Positions 33,639 through 40,607 of a stretch of 61,950 bases of DNA are shown here, piece by piece; position 1 is the first letter of the stretch; each line of letters starts with the position of its first letter. Location: assembly GCA_012729605.1 (NCBI GenBank), contig JAAYCV010000071.1, positions 1-61,950 on the forward strand, in the 5' to 3' direction. The position numbers were made by a program, and so were the translations under genes. The notes below the pieces were generated by a model that was given only the letters and a program-made list of their open reading frames with translations, searched no databases and was not told the DNA's origin. The stretch comes from Ramlibacter sp. (GTDB lineage Bacteria; Pseudomonadota; Gammaproteobacteria; Burkholderiales; Burkholderiaceae_C).

Positions 33639-34676
33639 TCAGCGGAACTGGCTCAGGAAGCGCACGTCGCCATCAAAGAACAGGCGCAGGTCGTTCACGC
33701 CATAACGCAGCATGGTGAAACGGTCCAGGCCCATGCCAAAGGCAAAGCCGATGTATTGCTCGGGATCCAGGCCCATGTTGCGGATCACGTTCGGGTGCGT
33801 CTGGCCGCTGCCGGCCACTTCCAGCCACTTGCCGGCCAGCGGGCCGCTCTGGAACTGGATATCGATTTCGGCGCTGGGCTCGGTGAACGGGAAGAAGCTG
33901 GGGCGGAAGCGCAGCACCAGGTCATCGCTCTCGAAAAACTTGCGGCAGAACTCGGTAAACACCACCTTCAGGTCCTTGAAGCTGATGTTCTCGCCAACCC
34001 ACAGGCCTTCGCACTGGTGGAACATCGGCGAGTGGGTGGCGTCGCTGTCCACGCGATAGGTACGGCCTGGGGCAATCACGCGCACCTCGGGGATGCGCTG
34101 GCCGGCGTCCAGCAGGTTCTGGTGGCGCTTGACGTGCTGTACCGCATGGCGGATCTGCATCGGGCTGGTGTGGGTACGCAGCAGGCTGCCGCCTTCGACG
34201 TAGAAGGTGTCGTGCATGGAGCGTGCCGGGTGGTCTTCCGGCGTGTTCAGCGCGGTGAAGTTGAACCAGTCGGATTCGATTTCCGGGCCGCGCGCCACTT
34301 CAAAGCCCATCGAACCGAACAGCTGCTCGATGCGCTCCATGGTCAGCGTCACCGGATGCAGGCCACCGGCACCACGCTGGCGGCCGGGCAGGGTGACGTC
34401 GAGCGCCTCGGCCTGCAGCTGGGCCTGCAGCTCGGCTTCGGCCAGCGCCTGGCGGCGTGCCGTCAGCGCGGCCTCGATCGCCTGCTTGGCCTGGTTGATG
34501 GCGGCGCCACGGGTCTTCTTGTCCTCGACGCTGAGCTGGGCCATGCCCTTCATCAGTTCGGTGATCTGGCCGGATTTGCCGAGGAAACGCGCCTTGGCGT
34601 TTTCCAGGTCATTCGGGGTGCTGGCTTGGTCGAAACTCTGCTGCGCGCTGGCAACAATGGCTTCCAGGTCGTTCAT
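33639..34676 (-). CDS. pheS: Phenylalanyl-tRNA synthetase alpha subunit
   Basis: Catalytic subunit that activates phenylalanine. The 345-residue protein has an N-terminal coiled coil (to about residue 85) and class II synthetase motifs: [17 protein letters not shown] (motif 1), [15 protein letters not shown] with FHQCEG (motif 2), and [17 protein letters not shown] (motif 3). The ATG at 34676 matches the usual N-terminus (MNDLEAIVA). The 273-bp upstream gap holds the rplT terminator and a 7-bp hairpin (34744-34760), but no Phe-rich leader peptide like E. coli pheM. Confidence 0.97.
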
Positions 34677-34949: not shown

Positions 34950-35309
34950 TCAGGCTGCCAGCTTGGCCTTGACCTGGTTCACGATGCTGGTGAAAGCAGC
35001 CGCATCATGCACGGCGATATCGGCCAGCACCTTGCGGTCGATTTCGATGGCGGCTTTCTTCAGACCATTGGTGAACTGGCTGTAAGTCAGGCCATTGGCA
35101 CGGGCAGCGGCGTTGATACGGGTGATCCACAGCTGGCGGAACACGCGCTTCTTGTTACGACGATCGCGGTAGGCATACTGGGCAGCCTTCATGACTGCCT
35201 GCTTGGCTACGCGATAGACGTTACCACGACGACCACGGAAACCCTTGGCCAGGGCGAGGACTTTCTTGTGACGGGCACGTGCCGTTACACCACGTTTGAC
35301 GCGAGGCAT
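34950..35309 (-). CDS. rplT: 50S ribosomal protein L20
   Basis: A 119-residue rRNA-binding protein needed early in 50S assembly. The basic N-terminal extension ([20 protein letters not shown]) and the globular C-terminal domain are typical. In E. coli L20 also represses its own operon by binding the mRNA upstream of rpmI. It follows rpmI by 26 bp. Confidence 0.97.
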
Positions 35310-35335: not shown

Positions 35336-35539
35336 TTACAGGCCTTGCTTGGGCAGCATCTGTGCCATGTGACCCATGTTGGTCTCATGGACATCCACTG
35401 CGCCGCGCAGGTGGCGCTTGTTCTTGGTGGTCTTCTTGGTCAGGATGTGGCGCTTGAAAGCCTGGCCACGCTTGACGCTACCACCCGGACGAACGCGGAA
35501 ACGTTTCTTCGCGCTGCTCTTGGTCTTCATTTTGGGCAT
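35336..35539 (-). CDS. rpmI: 50S ribosomal protein L35
   Basis: A 67-residue basic ribosomal protein ([34 protein letters not shown]). Length and sequence fit the family. It lies between infC and rplT, the universal arrangement, with an AGGAG-type site before the ATG. The 151-bp gap to infC is long enough to hold an L20-binding structure. Confidence 0.96.
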
Positions 35540-35690: not shown

Positions 35691-36305
35691 TTACTGGCCG
35701 TCGGCTTCAGCTGCAGGCGCGGAAGCGGCCTGCGGCTTGTTGTCCTTGGGACTGATTGCCTTCTTGCGGCCAGGGGCGATCATCATGATCATCTGGCGGC
35801 CTTCCAGCTTGGGGAACTGTTCTACCACGATGCTGTCGCCGAGCTCATCGCGGATGCGCTGCAGCAGGTCCATGCCCAGCTGCTGGTGCGTGATCTCGCG
35901 GCCGCGGAAGCGCAGCGTGATCTTGCACTTGTCGCCGTCTTCCAGGAAGCGGCGGATGTTGCGCATCTTGATGTTGTAGTCGCCGTCATCGGTGCCAGGG
36001 CGGAATTTCACTTCCTTGACCTCGATGACCTTCTGCTTGGCCTTGGCTTCGGCAGCCTTCTTCTGTTCCTGGTACTTGAACTTGCCGTAGTCCATCAGGC
36101 GGCAGACCGGGGGATTGGCCGTGGCGGCAATTTCCACCAGGTCCACGTCCAGGTCTCCGGCCATGCGCAGGGCTTCCTGCAGGGAAACGATGCCCAGGGG
36201 CTCGTTGTCCGGGCTGGACAGGCGTACTTCAGGAGCCGTGATTTCACGGTTCAGGCGGTGCTTGCGTTCTTCACGCTGGCGGCGATCACGAAATTCGGTA
36301 GCGAT
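35691..36305 (-). CDS. infC: Translation initiation factor IF-3, with ATC start codon
   Basis: IF-3 binds the 30S subunit and checks the start codon and initiator tRNA. The frame encodes an N-terminal domain ([14 protein letters not shown]), the linker with [17 protein letters not shown], and a C-terminal domain ([29 protein letters not shown]). There is no ATG or GTG at a suitable place. The codon ATC at 36305-36303 follows an AAAAAAGGA sequence by 8 bases and gives a normal 204-residue protein, so it is the likely start; E. coli infC uses ATT, which allows autoregulation. The C-terminus has an Ala-rich tail. It follows thrS by 79 bp. Confidence 0.92.
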
Positions 36306-36384
36306 GGTAGATATCCTTTTTTCAGTTACGGTAGGTTCACGCAAGACAGGCGACCATCCATTGCTGGTTGGCCGCCGGCAGCGA

Positions 36385-38316
36385 TCAGGCAGAAGGGGCT
36401 TCTGTCTGCAGGGACTTGCGGGCGATGTCCTGCTGGAGCAGTTCGGCGAACGCATCCAGCGACATCACGCCCAGATCCTGGTTGCCTCTGGCGCGCACGG
36501 CCACGCTGTTGTGCTCTTTTTCCTTGTCGCCAACGACCAGGATGTACGGCAGCTTCTGCGTGGCATAACTGCGTATTTTATAGGTAATCTTGTCGTTGTG
36601 CAGGTCCGTGATGACCCGGATGCCTTGTTTTCGCAGCGTTTCTGCCACGTTTTTGGCGTAATCGGCCTGTGCATCGGTGATATTGAGCACGGCAACCTGA
36701 ACCGGCGCCAGCCAGGAGGGCAGGGCGCCCGCATACTGTTCGATCAGGATGCCGATGAATCGTTCCATGCTGCCGACAATCGCGCGGTGCAGCATCACCG
36801 GACGGTGGCGGCCGCCATCCTCGCCGACGAATTCGGCGTCCAGGCGTTCTGGCATCGAGAAGTCGACCTGGATCGTGCCGCACTGCCATTCCCGGCCGAT
36901 GGCGTCTTTCAGCGTGTACTCGATCTTGGGGCCGTAGAAGGCACCGTCGCCGGGGGAGATCACGTAGTCGCAGCCGGAAGCGCGCAGGCTTTCCATCAGC
37001 GCGTGCTCGGCCTTGTCCCAGACTTCATCGGAACCGATGCGCTGCTCGGGGCGCGTCGAGACCTTGTAGATGATGTTGCTGAAGCCGAAATCGGCATAGA
37101 CCTTTTGCAGCAGGCTGGTGAAGGCGCTACATTCGGCCAGGATCTGGTCTTCGGTACAGAAGATGTGGCCGTCGTCCTGGGTGAAGGCACGCACGCGCAT
37201 GATGCCGTGCAGGCCGCCGCTGGGTTCGTTGCGGTGGCACTGGCCGAATTCGCCGTAGCGCAGCGGCAGGTCACGGTAGCTGCGCACGCCCTGCTTGTAG
37301 ATCAGGATGTGGCCGGGGCAGTTCATCGGCTTGAGTGCGTAATCGCGCTTTTCCGATTCGGTGGTGAACATGTTCTCGCGGTACTTGTCCCAGTGGCCGG
37401 TCTTTTCCCACAGGCCCTTGTCGAGCAGCTGCGGGCCTTTCACTTCCTGGTAGCCGTTGTCGCGGTAGACGTTGCGCATGTACTGCTCGACCTGCTGCCA
37501 GATGGTCCAGCCCTTGGGGTGCCAGAACACGGTACCGGGGGAGTGTTCGTCGATGTGGAACAGGTCCAGCTCGCGTGCCAGCTTGCGGTGGTCGCGCTTC
37601 TCGGCTTCTTCCAGCATGTGCAGATAGGCTTTCAGCTCGTCCTTGCTGGCCCAGGCGGTGCCGTAAATGCGCTGCAGCATCTCGTTCTTGCTGTCGCCGC
37701 GCCAGTAGGCGCCAGCCACCTTCATCAGCTTGAAGTGCTTGAGCTTGCCGGTGCTGGGCACGTGCGGGCCGCGGCACAGGTCCTCGAAGGCGCCTTCGCG
37801 GTAGAGCGAGACGTCTTCATTGCTCGGGATGCTGGCGATGATCTCGGCCTTGTAGTCTTCGCCCATGCCCTTGAAAAAGGCCACGGCCTCGTCGCGCGGC
37901 AGCACGCGGCGCTGCACCGGCTCGTCCTTGTTGGCGAGTTCGGTCATCTTCTTCTCGATGGCAACCAGGTCTTCCGGCGTGAACGGGCGCTTGTAGCTGA
38001 AGTCGTAGTAGAAGCCGTTGTCGATCACCGGGCCGATGGTGACCTGGGCGTCGGGGAACAGTTCCTTGACGGCGTAGGCCAGCAGGTGGGCGGTGGAGTG
38101 GCGGATCAGCTCCAGGCCGTCGGCGTCCTTGGCGGTGACGATGGCCAGGGCGGCGTCCTGCTCGATCAGGTAGCTGGTATCGACCAGCTTGCCGTCGACC
38201 TTGCCGCCCAGGGCGGCCTTGGCCAGGCCGCTGCCAATGCTGGCAGCGACATCGGCCACGGTGACGGATTGTTCGAAACTGCGCTGGGAACCGTCGGGAA
38301 GAGTGATCTGGATCAT
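36385..38316 (-). CDS. thrS: Threonyl-tRNA synthetase
   Basis: Class II synthetase that charges tRNA-Thr. The 643-residue protein has an N-terminal TGS domain ([15 protein letters not shown]), an editing domain with [11 protein letters not shown], a catalytic core with the zinc-ligand segments [12 protein letters not shown] and later [19 protein letters not shown], and a C-terminal anticodon-binding domain. The ATG at 38316 was chosen by fit to the E. coli N-terminus; ATG 38325 is possible. Upstream are an intrinsic terminator and a Thr-rich leader reading frame, suggesting control by threonyl-tRNA supply. Confidence 0.97.
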
Positions 38317-38338
38317 GGTGTGCATCAATGGGGGCAAG

Positions 38339-38362
38339 AAAAAAGCGCGGGGTGCCGCGCTT
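38339..38362 (-). terminator. Intrinsic terminator in the thrS leader (candidate attenuator)
   Basis: An 8-bp GC-rich stem (38343-38350 with 38355-38362, 4-base loop) is followed on the minus strand by six T residues. It ends about 22 bp before the thrS start and begins 19 bp after the stop of the Thr-rich leader frame, so any thrS transcript from upstream must pass through it. Confidence 0.85.
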
Positions 38363-38381
38363 GGTGGGGGTGGTTTCCGGG

Positions 38382-38471
38382 TCAGGCCGGGAAAACCGGG
38401 CGCGCAGGCAGCGTGCCGGCAGCCGTAGTGCGGTTGCCGTGCATGGGCGAGGTGCTAGTTCGCGGTGTCAT
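38382..38471 (-). CDS. Thr-rich leader peptide of thrS
   Basis: A 29-codon frame starting [20 protein letters not shown] with six threonines (positions 2, 5, 7, 15, 16, 20), using ACA, ACT, ACC, ACT, ACG and ACG codons. An AGGAAAGG sequence lies about 11 bases upstream of the ATG. The stop is followed by a strong terminator and then by thrS. This is the layout of ribosome-mediated attenuation as in the E. coli thr operon: ribosomes stalling at Thr codons when charged tRNA-Thr is low would favour an alternative fold. The competing antiterminator pairing was not resolved by eye. The peptide is unlikely to have a function of its own. Confidence 0.7.
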
Positions 38472-38675
38472 AACCCGTGCTGCCTTTCCTGCTCTTGCTG
38501 GTTGAAGGGAATACCCGCATTTTACCCTGTCTGCGCCAGACTGGCATTTTCCGGCTTGCAAGGGCTTGGCAAATGTGTACAAATCATGACCAGTTGCCGG
38601 ATGGGCTCCGGTACACTTGCAGCACCGGGTGCCTGCAGTCAGTGCGCCCCAGATGATGAAAGCAAGAGAAATCCT

Positions 38676-39302
38676 ATGGCACATTACGATCCCCCTTTTG
38701 AAATTCATGTGCACGGCGAGGTCTCTCTGCATCCTGAAGTGACGACCGATGACGTGGCCGAAGCGCTGCGTCCGCTGTGGCAGTATGCGGGTGCGCGCTC
38801 GCTCGCCGATGGCGCTGCCAGCGCCTATGACGAGGAGCCCGGCATCCAGTACGACCAGCGCCAGAATCTGCTGCGCATGTGCTGGACAGTGCGCGGCGAT
38901 GAAGGTTTCCGCCGCCATATCGATGACATGTGCATGAACCTCAACGAACTGGCCAGCACCGGCGCGCCGATCGAGGTCACTTTCTACGACACCGAATACG
39001 ACGACGAGGACAACGAGAATCGTGGCGAGGAAGCGCGCGACGATTTCATGATCGTGTTCGTCGGCCCGACGCCGGCCGCCATCATGCAGATCCAGCGCGA
39101 CCTGCTGGTGCAGGATGTGATCGCGGTGATGGAGCGCCACTTCGACAGCAACGAGCTGCGCGGCGTGGTGGAAGAGGTGGACAAGCTGTTCACACAGCGC
39201 TTTGATGCGCTGGTCGAATCGCTGGAACTGGGCAAGCCGCCAAGCGGCTCCGGCCCGGCTGGCCATCGCGGCCCGGGCCGCAACAAGCGCCACCTGCACT
39301 GA
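38676..39302 (+). CDS. Conserved acidic protein, probably DUF6806 family
   Basis: A 208-residue cytosolic protein with no membrane segment. It resembles a conserved Burkholderiales protein (start FEIHVHGEVSLHPEVTTDD, then AGARSLADGAASAYDEEPGIQ, FMIVFVGPTPAAIMQIQRDLLVQDVI), which I recall as DUF6806. A strongly acidic stretch (YDTEYDDEDNENRGEEARDD, about 106-125) lies in the middle, and the C-terminus is basic and Gly/Pro-rich. Its function is unknown. It is divergent from thrS and lies 6 bp before the transporter gene, probably co-transcribed. Confidence 0.8.
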   Translation: MAHYDPPFEIHVHGEVSLHPEVTTDDVAEALRPLWQYAGARSLADGAASAYDEEPGIQYDQRQNLLRMCWTVRGDEGFRRHIDDMCMNLNELASTGAPIEVTFYDTEYDDEDNENRGEEARDDFMIVFVGPTPAAIMQIQRDLLVQDVIAVMERHFDSNELRGVVEEVDKLFTQRFDALVESLELGKPPSGSGPAGHRGPGRNKRHLH

Positions 39303-39308
39303 TCGCCG

Positions 39309-40607
39309 ATGCGCGCCTTGCTGCCTGAGACGGCGCTCAACCCCGGTGTGCGCCGGCGCGAGGTGTTTGGCTGGGCGCTGTACGATTTTGCCAATTCCGG
39401 CTACACCACCGTGGTGCTCACGGCGGTGTTCTCTGCCTATTTCGTTTCGGCTGTAGCTGGTGCGACCAGCTGGGCGACGCTGCTGTGGACGCTGGCAATC
39501 GGCCTGTCGAATGCCATCGTGATGCTGCTGATGCCGGCGCTGGGCGCCTGGGCCGACCAGCGTGCCGCCAAGAAGCGGCTGCTGATGCTGGTGACGCTGC
39601 TGTGCGTGCTGTTTACGGCTGCGCTGGCACTGGCGCAGCCGGGGATGGTGGCGCTGGCGGTGCTGCTGATTGTCATCTCCAATACCTTCTACAGCATGGG
39701 CGAGTCGCTCACGGCGGCATTCCTGCCGGAGCTGGCGCGGCCCGAGGCGATGGGGCGAGTGAGCGGACTCGGCTGGGGCTTTGGCTATGCCGGCGGCATG
39801 CTGACGCTGGCCGTGTGCCTGGCCTTCGTGCTGTGGGCGCAGGCGCAGGGCATGCCGGCCGGGCAGTATGTGGCGGTGACCATGCTGATCACGGCGGCAC
39901 TGTATGGGCTGCCGGCGCTGGGCACGTTTGCGCTGCTGCGCGAGCATGCACGGCCACGCGCGCAGACCACGCGCACCGGTATCGCGCATGGCTTTGGCCA
40001 GCTGCGCTACACTTGGCAGCAGACCCGACAACTGCCGGACCTGCGCCTGCTGCTCGGCAGCACGGTGTGCTATCAGGCTGGCGTGGCGGTGGCGATCACG
40101 CTGGCGGCTATCTATGCCGAGCAGGTAATCGGCTTTGAATCGCAGGAAACCATGATCATGGTGCTGGCGCTGAACCTGGCGGCGGCATTCGGGGCGCTGC
40201 TGTTTGGCCAGCTGCAGGACCGCATTGGCCACCGGCTGGCGCTGGCACTGACGCTGGTCGGCTGGATCATGGTCTGCCTGCTGGCGGCATCGGCCAGTGG
40301 CAAGCCGCAGTTCTGGGTGGCGGCCACGATTGCCGGCTTGTGCATGGGCAGCAGCCAGTCAGCCGGGCGCGCCATGGTCGGGCTGTTTGCACCGCCGCAG
40401 CAGCTGGCGGAATACTTTGGCCTGTGGACCACGGTCACGCGGCTGGCCAGCATCCTCGGGCCGATCAGCTACGGCCTGATTACCTGGGCCGCGTCGGGCA
40501 ACCAGCGCGTGGCGATTCTGGCCTGCAGCCTGTTCTTTGTGCTTGGCATGGCCTTCCTGTGGCCGATGCGGGTGCAGCGCGGTCGCCAGGCGGCGCTGGC
40601 AGCCTGA
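39309..40607 (+). CDS. MFS transporter, UMF1 (Atg22-like) family
   Basis: A 432-residue integral membrane protein with 12 predicted helices. The N-terminal signature WALYDFANSGYTTVVLTAVF is that of the UMF1 family of the major facilitator superfamily, related to yeast Atg22, a vacuolar amino-acid effluxer. A DQRAAKKRLL loop after helix 2 is the usual MFS basic loop. The substrate is unknown; bacterial members have been little studied. It ends 3 bp from the convergent murI gene. Confidence 0.85.
   Translation: MRALLPETALNPGVRRREVFGWALYDFANSGYTTVVLTAVFSAYFVSAVAGATSWATLLWTLAIGLSNAIVMLLMPALGAWADQRAAKKRLLMLVTLLCVLFTAALALAQPGMVALAVLLIVISNTFYSMGESLTAAFLPELARPEAMGRVSGLGWGFGYAGGMLTLAVCLAFVLWAQAQGMPAGQYVAVTMLITAALYGLPALGTFALLREHARPRAQTTRTGIAHGFGQLRYTWQQTRQLPDLRLLLGSTVCYQAGVAVAITLAAIYAEQVIGFESQETMIMVLALNLAAAFGALLFGQLQDRIGHRLALALTLVGWIMVCLLAASASGKPQFWVAATIAGLCMGSSQSAGRAMVGLFAPPQQLAEYFGLWTTVTRLASILGPISYGLITWAASGNQRVAILACSLFFVLGMAFLWPMRVQRGRQAALAA

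Follow-up and report, generated by a model that had tools for sequence, protein, structure and literature searches.

In the enterobacterial attenuators, of which thr, trp and his of E. coli are examples, a short leader rich in cognate codons is combined with a terminator before the gene and a competing antiterminator. Upstream of thrS in Firmicutes a T-box is found, in which tRNA binds the RNA directly, the charging of tRNA-Thr is sensed and the terminator is acted upon. The thrS gene is also the standard example of a synthetase gene whose product represses its own translation, and for E. coli the accessible part of PMC11088916 describes this repression by threonyl-tRNA synthetase (ThrRS) through anticodon mimics before the start codon. 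Leader-peptide attenuation before synthetase genes is named, in the accessible part of PMC1262725, for pheST in gammaproteobacteria and for trpS and leuS in Streptomyces. In addition, the accessible part of PMC8079986 lists a thrL leader (MKRVRPFLETTPGFVPAR) in front of thrS for Streptomyces lividans TK24; this leader contains two Thr and has one hairpin, and according to the authors themselves a U-rich run is absent. The earlier note on the DNA studied here had considered a Thr-codon leader to be unknown for thrS. This has to be narrowed in view of the S. lividans entry, and it stands for Burkholderiales as far as the open-access literature consulted goes, in which none was found. The main text of a survey of premature terminators (PMC2965389) names threonyl-tRNA synthetase once, for E. 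coli, and its lists of attenuated genes may include thrS. No open-access paper on thrS attenuation in Betaproteobacteria was found, and comparative work on attenuation in subscription journals may already contain it.

The window analysed is the whole stretch of 61,950 nucleotides from Ramlibacter sp. (contig JAAYCV010000071.1), and the features of the locus are given in Table 1. The genes 3' of the leader follow in the order thrS, infC, rpmI, rplT and pheS, and the source genome holds one full-length thrS match. The leader stop codon is separated from the terminator by 19 nt, and the T-run from the thrS ATG (38316) by 22 nt. In the gap between rplT and pheS a terminator-like hairpin (GGGCTGG...CCAGCCC) with a T-run is present at 34881-34847 of the minus strand, and inspection by eye of the region 5' of pheS in the window showed no Phe-rich leader.

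Table 1. Features of the thrS leader and of the genes behind it, in window coordinates.
Feature	Position	Strand	Description
Promoter-like site	38519..38547	-	ATGCCA, 17-nt gap, TAAAAT; sigma-70-like, upstream of leader
Ribosome-binding-like sequence AGGAAAGG	38483..38490	-	Ends 11 nt 5' of leader ATG
18-nt core GGTTATGACACCGCGAAC	38458..38475	-	Spans leader start; present in at least 119 contig stretches
Leader ORF, Thr-rich	38382..38471	-	29 sense codons; ATG 38471-38469, TGA 38384-38382
Predicted antiterminator left arm TGCCTGCGC (segment 2)	38402..38410	-	Within leader codons 21-24; prediction only
Predicted antiterminator right arm GCGCGGCA (segment 3)	38353..38360	-	Overlaps terminator 5' arm; prediction only
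Intrinsic terminator	38339..38362	-	8-bp stem AAGCGCGG/CCGCGCTT, loop CACC, T-run TTTT
thrS, threonyl-tRNA synthetase, presumed controlled gene	36385..38316	-	TIGR00418, E 3.3e-223
infC (IF-3), next in presumed operon	35691..36455	-	TIGR00168, match from residue 63; ORF as listed probably too long, true start further in
rpmI (ribosomal protein L35)	35336..35539	-	TIGR00001
rplT (ribosomal protein L20)	34950..35309	-	TIGR01032
pheS (PheRS alpha), end of examined cluster	33639..34676	-	TIGR00468; start codon picked by eye

The control of thrS at this locus is very probably exerted by a classical ribosome-mediated transcription attenuator. Transcription would begin 5' of the leader, with a ribosome following on the Thr-rich frame. 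With plentiful charged tRNA-Thr the ribosome would reach the stop codon, the hold of upstream RNA on the 5' terminator arm would be weaker, and RNA polymerase would terminate before thrS. With scarce charged tRNA-Thr the ribosome would stall at the Thr codons, a downstream segment would pair with the terminator 5' arm so that the terminator could not form, and thrS would be transcribed, possibly together with infC, rpmI, rplT and pheS.

The 29-codon minus-strand frame described in the earlier note was confirmed in the sequence, with its six Thr codons at positions 2, 5, 7, 15, 16 and 20 (ACA, ACT, ACC, ACT, ACG and ACG), and the ribosome-binding sequence claimed before it is present as well. 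The leader is about twice the median length of 13 codons. The 8-bp stem was found, as described, 19 nt after the stop and before thrS, and six T residues do follow CCGCGC, two of them lying in the stem. In the eight window ORFs, ACT and ACA together account for 13 of 160 Thr codons, yet they provide three of the six in the leader; CGA accounts for 4 of 191 Arg codons in the same ORFs. The first codons ACA CCG CGA ACT (window 38475-38458) are strongly kept as nucleotides in several families, beyond what coding would ask for. The leader frame is also the tail of a 616-codon open frame on the minus strand (window 38382-40232), which is antisense to plus-strand ORFs and looks spurious.

The best Thr count of any ORF of 8-32 codons in the 230 nt 5' of thrS was six in the window, compared with a mean of 1.72 in 200 dinucleotide shuffles of the same 230 nt (p = 0.010). 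When 59 upstream regions were tested in this way, individual values of p ≤ 0.05 were obtained for 22 of the 35 regions from family f1, to which the window belongs, and for 2 of the 24 from other families (G039 and G042). The locus has the short leader ORF, the ribosome-binding-like site and the enrichment in cognate codons that characterise an attenuator, and the leader is presumably translated. Judged from sequence, the window leader is not a chance frame, since it is conserved in relatives, which is stronger evidence than the shuffle p value.

Conservation was followed in two sets, one anchored on thrS and one selected by the nucleotide core. For the first, the N-terminal part of ThrRS served as query against 60 relatives, of which 59 matched (all except G016). 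The leader was present in 30 of the 35 members of family f1 (absent in G001, G006, G027, G032 and G033) and in 6 single representatives of 24 other families (G037, G039, G040, G042, G048 and G057; missing in 18). A further 80 genomes gave 83 thrS places with the leader at 48. These genomes were a manual choice, and many of them were taken since the leader or the motif had already been seen in their families, so that the counts are not frequencies. The set comprises 84 leaders from 16 families among 142 upstream regions, 58 of which are leader-less. Leaders were called by eye from short ORFs; for peptides not of the MTPRT type the mark was an in-frame Thr that follows Arg, Pro, Leu or Lys. Seven regions in which a similar core or some Thr residues were present (G050, G054, G058, G067b, G114, G135 and G175) were left uncalled. 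Thr makes up 321 of 1110 residues in the 84 leaders, compared with 8.6% expected from their base composition and with 89 of 1110 and fewer than 44 in the shifted frames, a richness that is partly selected because the calling rule itself uses in-frame Thr. Free of this selection are the tests on the 35 f1 members and on codons 6 onward of the core-selected stretches.

Leaders of other families that are not of the MTPRT type keep their Thr residues (MFRTRTTTQR, MFRTTTTTGK, MFKRTTTTRISR, MAVRTTTTHP, MQLNRTTTTS, MCNGLSCRTTTTRER, MTPLTTLERLIR and MRPPTTLQGKTR), and leader length varies much between families. In many f1 members GAGAAAGGC was seen by eye at the ribosome-binding position. The alignment with relatives that the earlier note had proposed thus came out in its favour, as frame, Thr codons and terminator are kept (30 of 35 f1 members, synonymous Thr changes, terminators in 84 of 84) while other residues vary. 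At the second thrS copy of G067 (L261, family f33), a leader-like frame ending in RFIVTTTTTTSTAT*, with 8 Thr, lies about 100-190 nt before the start; it is followed by alternative pairing segments (GGCTACCT, AGGTAGCC and GGCTGCCTCC) and, by eye, by no T-run. The thrS copy at this place shares only 61% identity with that of the window, and the frame may belong to a Thr-leader device of its own.

The second set came from an exact scan of a public genome collection for the 18-nt core, which returned at least 119 contig stretches. Among the matches listed, a scripted search for the ThrRS start motif within 700 nt downstream succeeded in 117 of 119. In L088 the script missed thrS, which was recognised by translation, and L131 ends 47 nt past the motif start, so that 118 of the 119 listed stretches lie directly 5' of thrS and the contig of the remaining one ends; in L111 the script position was wrong and the thrS start was placed by inspection of the sequence. 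In all 119 listed stretches the frame encodes an MTPRT... peptide of 10-22 codons (11-14 codons in 96 of 119). Codons 6 onward lie outside the searched core and are free of search selection. Codon 6 is Thr in 90 of the 119 listed stretches (ACG 29, ACA 27, ACT 20, ACC 14) and another residue in the other 29, and its third base has a higher entropy (1.94 bits) than its first two (0.95 and 0.84). At later codons Thr occurs in 62/119 (codon 7), 23/119 (codon 8), 25/119 (codon 9), 16/119 (codon 10) and 15/116 (codon 11) of the listed stretches; for comparison, the base composition of the 84 thrS-anchored leaders would give 8.6% Thr.

Among 80 titles of listed stretches, 76 name taxa that we take to belong to Burkholderiales, and the taxa named include Variovorax, Massilia, Roseateles, Rhodoferax, Cupriavidus, Burkholderia, Paraburkholderia, Comamonas, Acidovorax and Janthinobacterium; the other four read Alphaproteobacteria (one), Proteobacteria (two) and metagenome bin (one). 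A shorter core of 15 nt (RTGACACCGCGAACT) was found exactly in 32 of 300 genomes drawn evenly from the order (8 of 9 in f1, 8 of 9 in f8, scattered in others). Directly upstream of a located thrS were 20 of these 32 matches; that of G045 is not at thrS, and the 11 remaining fall outside the comparison.

An intrinsic terminator follows each of the 84 called leaders of the thrS-anchored set, 16-66 nt past the stop codon and 21-131 nt before the aligned thrS start. A terminator score of at least 15 was reached in 84 of 84 leaders, compared with 32 of 1680 shuffles of the stretch between stop codon and thrS, and in 36 of the 58 leader-less upstreams of the order. The terminator arms covary (z -20.4 over the 84 leaders, -8.2 with one genome per family). 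In the core-selected set the script found the terminator in 116 of 118 stretches; in L111 it is visible by eye, and in L072 it is degenerate.

These distances bear on another way in which a leader could act. Leader genes near a structural gene are thought to raise its translation via reinitiation (accessible part of PMC4833913), and the main action of the leader might be on translation, through coupling to thrS or reinitiation there, with the terminator giving a constant, unswitched read-through. The stop codon lies upstream of the terminator and the terminator in turn upstream of thrS, at the spacings given above, whereas the same source, as far as accessible, gives a peak at 10-11 nt for Actinobacteria, and reinitiation has no need for Thr codons. 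We consider this explanation very unlikely.

In attenuation, the terminator would be switched by the position of the ribosome, and this was modelled by folding. A ribosome was set with its A site either at the stop codon or at the leader's first Thr codon beyond codon 2, and the RNA as far as 16 nt from where the P-site codon begins was masked. The readout was the extent to which the terminator's 5' arm pairs with RNA upstream of it while the 3' arm has yet to be made. Over the 84 leaders, the mean predicted arm pairing was 0.68 for the stalled ribosome, 0.52 for the ribosome at the stop codon and 0.46 with no ribosome, compared with 0.58, 0.50 and 0.55, respectively, in dinucleotide shuffles of the spacer. 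Relative to these shuffles, z was 6.5 for the stalled state, 3.2 for stalled minus stop and 9.3 for stalled minus none, and none of 40 shuffle sets reached any of the three values. Spacer and terminator arm show weak covariation in the thrS-anchored set (z -1.7 over 84, -1.5 in f1 and -0.3 outside f1), none with one genome per family (z -0.1) and a stronger one in the core-selected set (z -4.3, 114 stretches after removal of near-duplicates). Pairing between leader start and spacer is weak in both (z -1.1 and -2.5, respectively).

For the window alone, the predicted pairing was 0.75 stalled, 0.27 at the stop codon and 0.64 ribosome-free, and 13 of 20 spacer shuffles paired at least as well; the ribosome-free value means that this state is also predicted to favour antitermination. 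A helix of UGCCuGCGC with GCGCGGCA is predicted in the window for stalls at codons 5, 7, 15 and 16, and not for a ribosome at codon 20, where another and weaker pairing is predicted, or at the stop. The antiterminators drawn for two other genomes (GUUCGCGC with GCGCGGAC in G028, GCCGUGC with GUGCGGC in G211) both keep a shortened form at the stop. The folding for mutually exclusive stems that the earlier note had proposed gave a prediction: a stall-dependent antiterminator exceeds shuffles over the set of 84 leaders, and in the window alone it does not.

Taken as a whole, the leader region of the window is predicted to be no more stable than its shuffled versions (z -0.81), and fold stability is therefore no part of the argument. 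In a consensus fold of 22 hand-chosen leaders out of the 32 of f1, the terminator and a 4-bp hairpin round the leader AUG were obtained and nothing else, and for this reason the comparison of cognate with non-cognate pairing and the folding by stall position were used; segment 2 differs in length and place among the f1 leaders. The switch is supported, by modelling, as a property of the set and not proven for any single genome. Ribosome-mediated attenuation, the reading already offered in the earlier note, is supported by the conserved Thr codons, the terminators in all 84 cases and this set-wide stall-dependent folding, with read-through as the presumed outcome.

Control by ThrRS itself, as in E. 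coli, was examined through other orders of the class, where 52 genomes had a thrS match and the 29 best-matching loci were examined. By eye, no comparable Thr leader was seen in these 29 genomes; their best short ORFs have up to 4 Thr (G361, in which the ORF runs out of a tRNA gene, by eye). An operator pattern, devised after these loci had been viewed, was defined as an anticodon-mimic hairpin with NGU in a loop of 7-10 nt shortly before thrS. In its strict form, within 130 nt of thrS, it was found in 13 of 29 loci of other orders (L266-L294), in 4 of 84 leader-bearing and in 2 of 58 leader-less Burkholderiales regions, and three of the 4 in leader-bearing genomes are the terminator itself (by eye); the window has no hairpin of the strict form. 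The loose form was found in 16/29, 8/84 and 7/58, with shuffled means of 1.8, 4.3 and 4.5, respectively. The 13 hairpins of other orders, with an NGUA loop like that of an anticodon arm, begin 39-52 nt upstream of the aligned start of ThrRS (82 nt in one case) and resemble the operator of E. coli. In the thrS upstreams of Burkholderiales no such hairpin was detected beyond chance, and these sequence comparisons suggest that one control system took the place of another at thrS.

It could still be argued that the leader RNA imitates a tRNA, that its binding by ThrRS represses thrS and that the ORF is incidental, since such autorepression is well studied for E. coli thrS (accessible part of PMC11088916) and, by eye, the GGU that precedes the leader AUG (CGU in some families) resembles the Thr anticodon. 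By eye no stem was seen around this trinucleotide and the operator hairpin is not enriched, so this candidate was rejected. The scarcity of the strict hairpin in leader-bearing genomes relative to other orders stands against ThrRS binding, and a protein-binding site alone would leave the kept frame, the synonymous Thr codons and the stop position unexplained; the probability left for it is small. At gathering score, Rfam found only tRNA genes in the window and 18 related loci, with no T-box and no catalogued leader family; at a permissive E-value, WT1-AS_3 and isrK were obtained for 38250-38620, both below threshold, and were taken as chance.

Attenuation by the leader requires transcription to start before it. 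A TANNAT-like box was found 28-85 nt 5' of the leader ATG in 26 of the 32 f1 leaders, often near -50 (shuffles: mean 2.9, maximum 8), and in 61 of 117 core-selected stretches (shuffles: mean 12.1, maximum 20). This suggests that transcription starts before the leader, from a predicted promoter. Upstream of thrS, the window has an ORF of opposite direction and no tRNA gene. A tRNA-Val (GAC) gene lies directly before the leader in L070, L093 and L200, and leader and tRNA may share a transcript in such lineages; it also lies before leader-less thrS in L047, L232 and L239, where an attenuator-like terminator (GTGCGG...CCGCAC) stands between tRNA-Val and thrS. This hints that the terminator at the tRNA-Val-thrS junction was the origin of the attenuator. 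A further explanation would be that the terminator simply serves a transcript from upstream, which is tRNA-Val in many genomes, and that the leader frame arose by chance in GC-rich DNA. It draws on these three leader-less loci, on the frequent terminators of leader-less upstreams (36/58) and on the window frame being open far upstream within the 616-codon antisense frame, and it is the least probable of the explanations considered, as the window has no such tRNA and an upstream ORF pointing the other way, and start, frame, Thr codons and stop position are kept over at least 119 stretches, with leaders in 16 families.

A wider reading that builds on attenuation by the leader can be offered tentatively, and we hold it to be possible rather than probable. 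Burkholderiales would have lost ThrRS autorepression, a translational control to which the hairpins of other orders in the class point, and replaced it by leader attenuation built on the terminator at the tRNA-Val-thrS junction, charged tRNA-Thr would also set the transcription of the genes for IF-3, L35, L20 and PheRS, and the 18-nt core would carry a second input. The core is kept beyond coding (rare ACA, CGA and ACT; GGUU before AUG), and the second input would be, for example, the initiation rate or pausing at the leader start. In Burkholderiales, with genera such as Cupriavidus, Variovorax, Massilia, Comamonas and Burkholderia, thrS appears to be run by charged tRNA-Thr as read by the ribosome instead of by the synthetase. 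Because the sensor at thrS would be a different one and the operator hairpin was not detected beyond chance there, a swap of control systems at one gene becomes directly testable. In the window, the compact conserved attenuator may link threonine supply to a cluster with IF-3 and two ribosomal-protein genes.

Attenuation by a leader peptide is classical and known for synthetase genes, and on our analysis thrS in Burkholderiales appears to be a new case, with the caveat on priority given above. The E. coli ThrRS operator concerns the same gene, but it acts through protein-binding anticodon mimics (accessible part of PMC11088916), and its hairpin is not enriched in leader-bearing genomes. The T-box shares the sensing of charging and the terminator, whereas it works without a leader ORF, and Rfam showed no T-box in the window or the 18 related loci. 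The thrL of S. lividans, as far as its source is accessible, is likewise a Thr leader before thrS, with no sequence relation to the Burkholderiales leader visible by eye. The attenuators of pheST, trpS and leuS also stand before synthetase genes, for other amino acids and in other clades than thrS in Burkholderiales. The E. coli thr, trp and his attenuators control biosynthesis, whereas the Burkholderiales leader precedes a synthetase gene and matches no Rfam leader family; they are alike in the cognate-rich leader, the intrinsic terminator and the antiterminator, which is predicted here.
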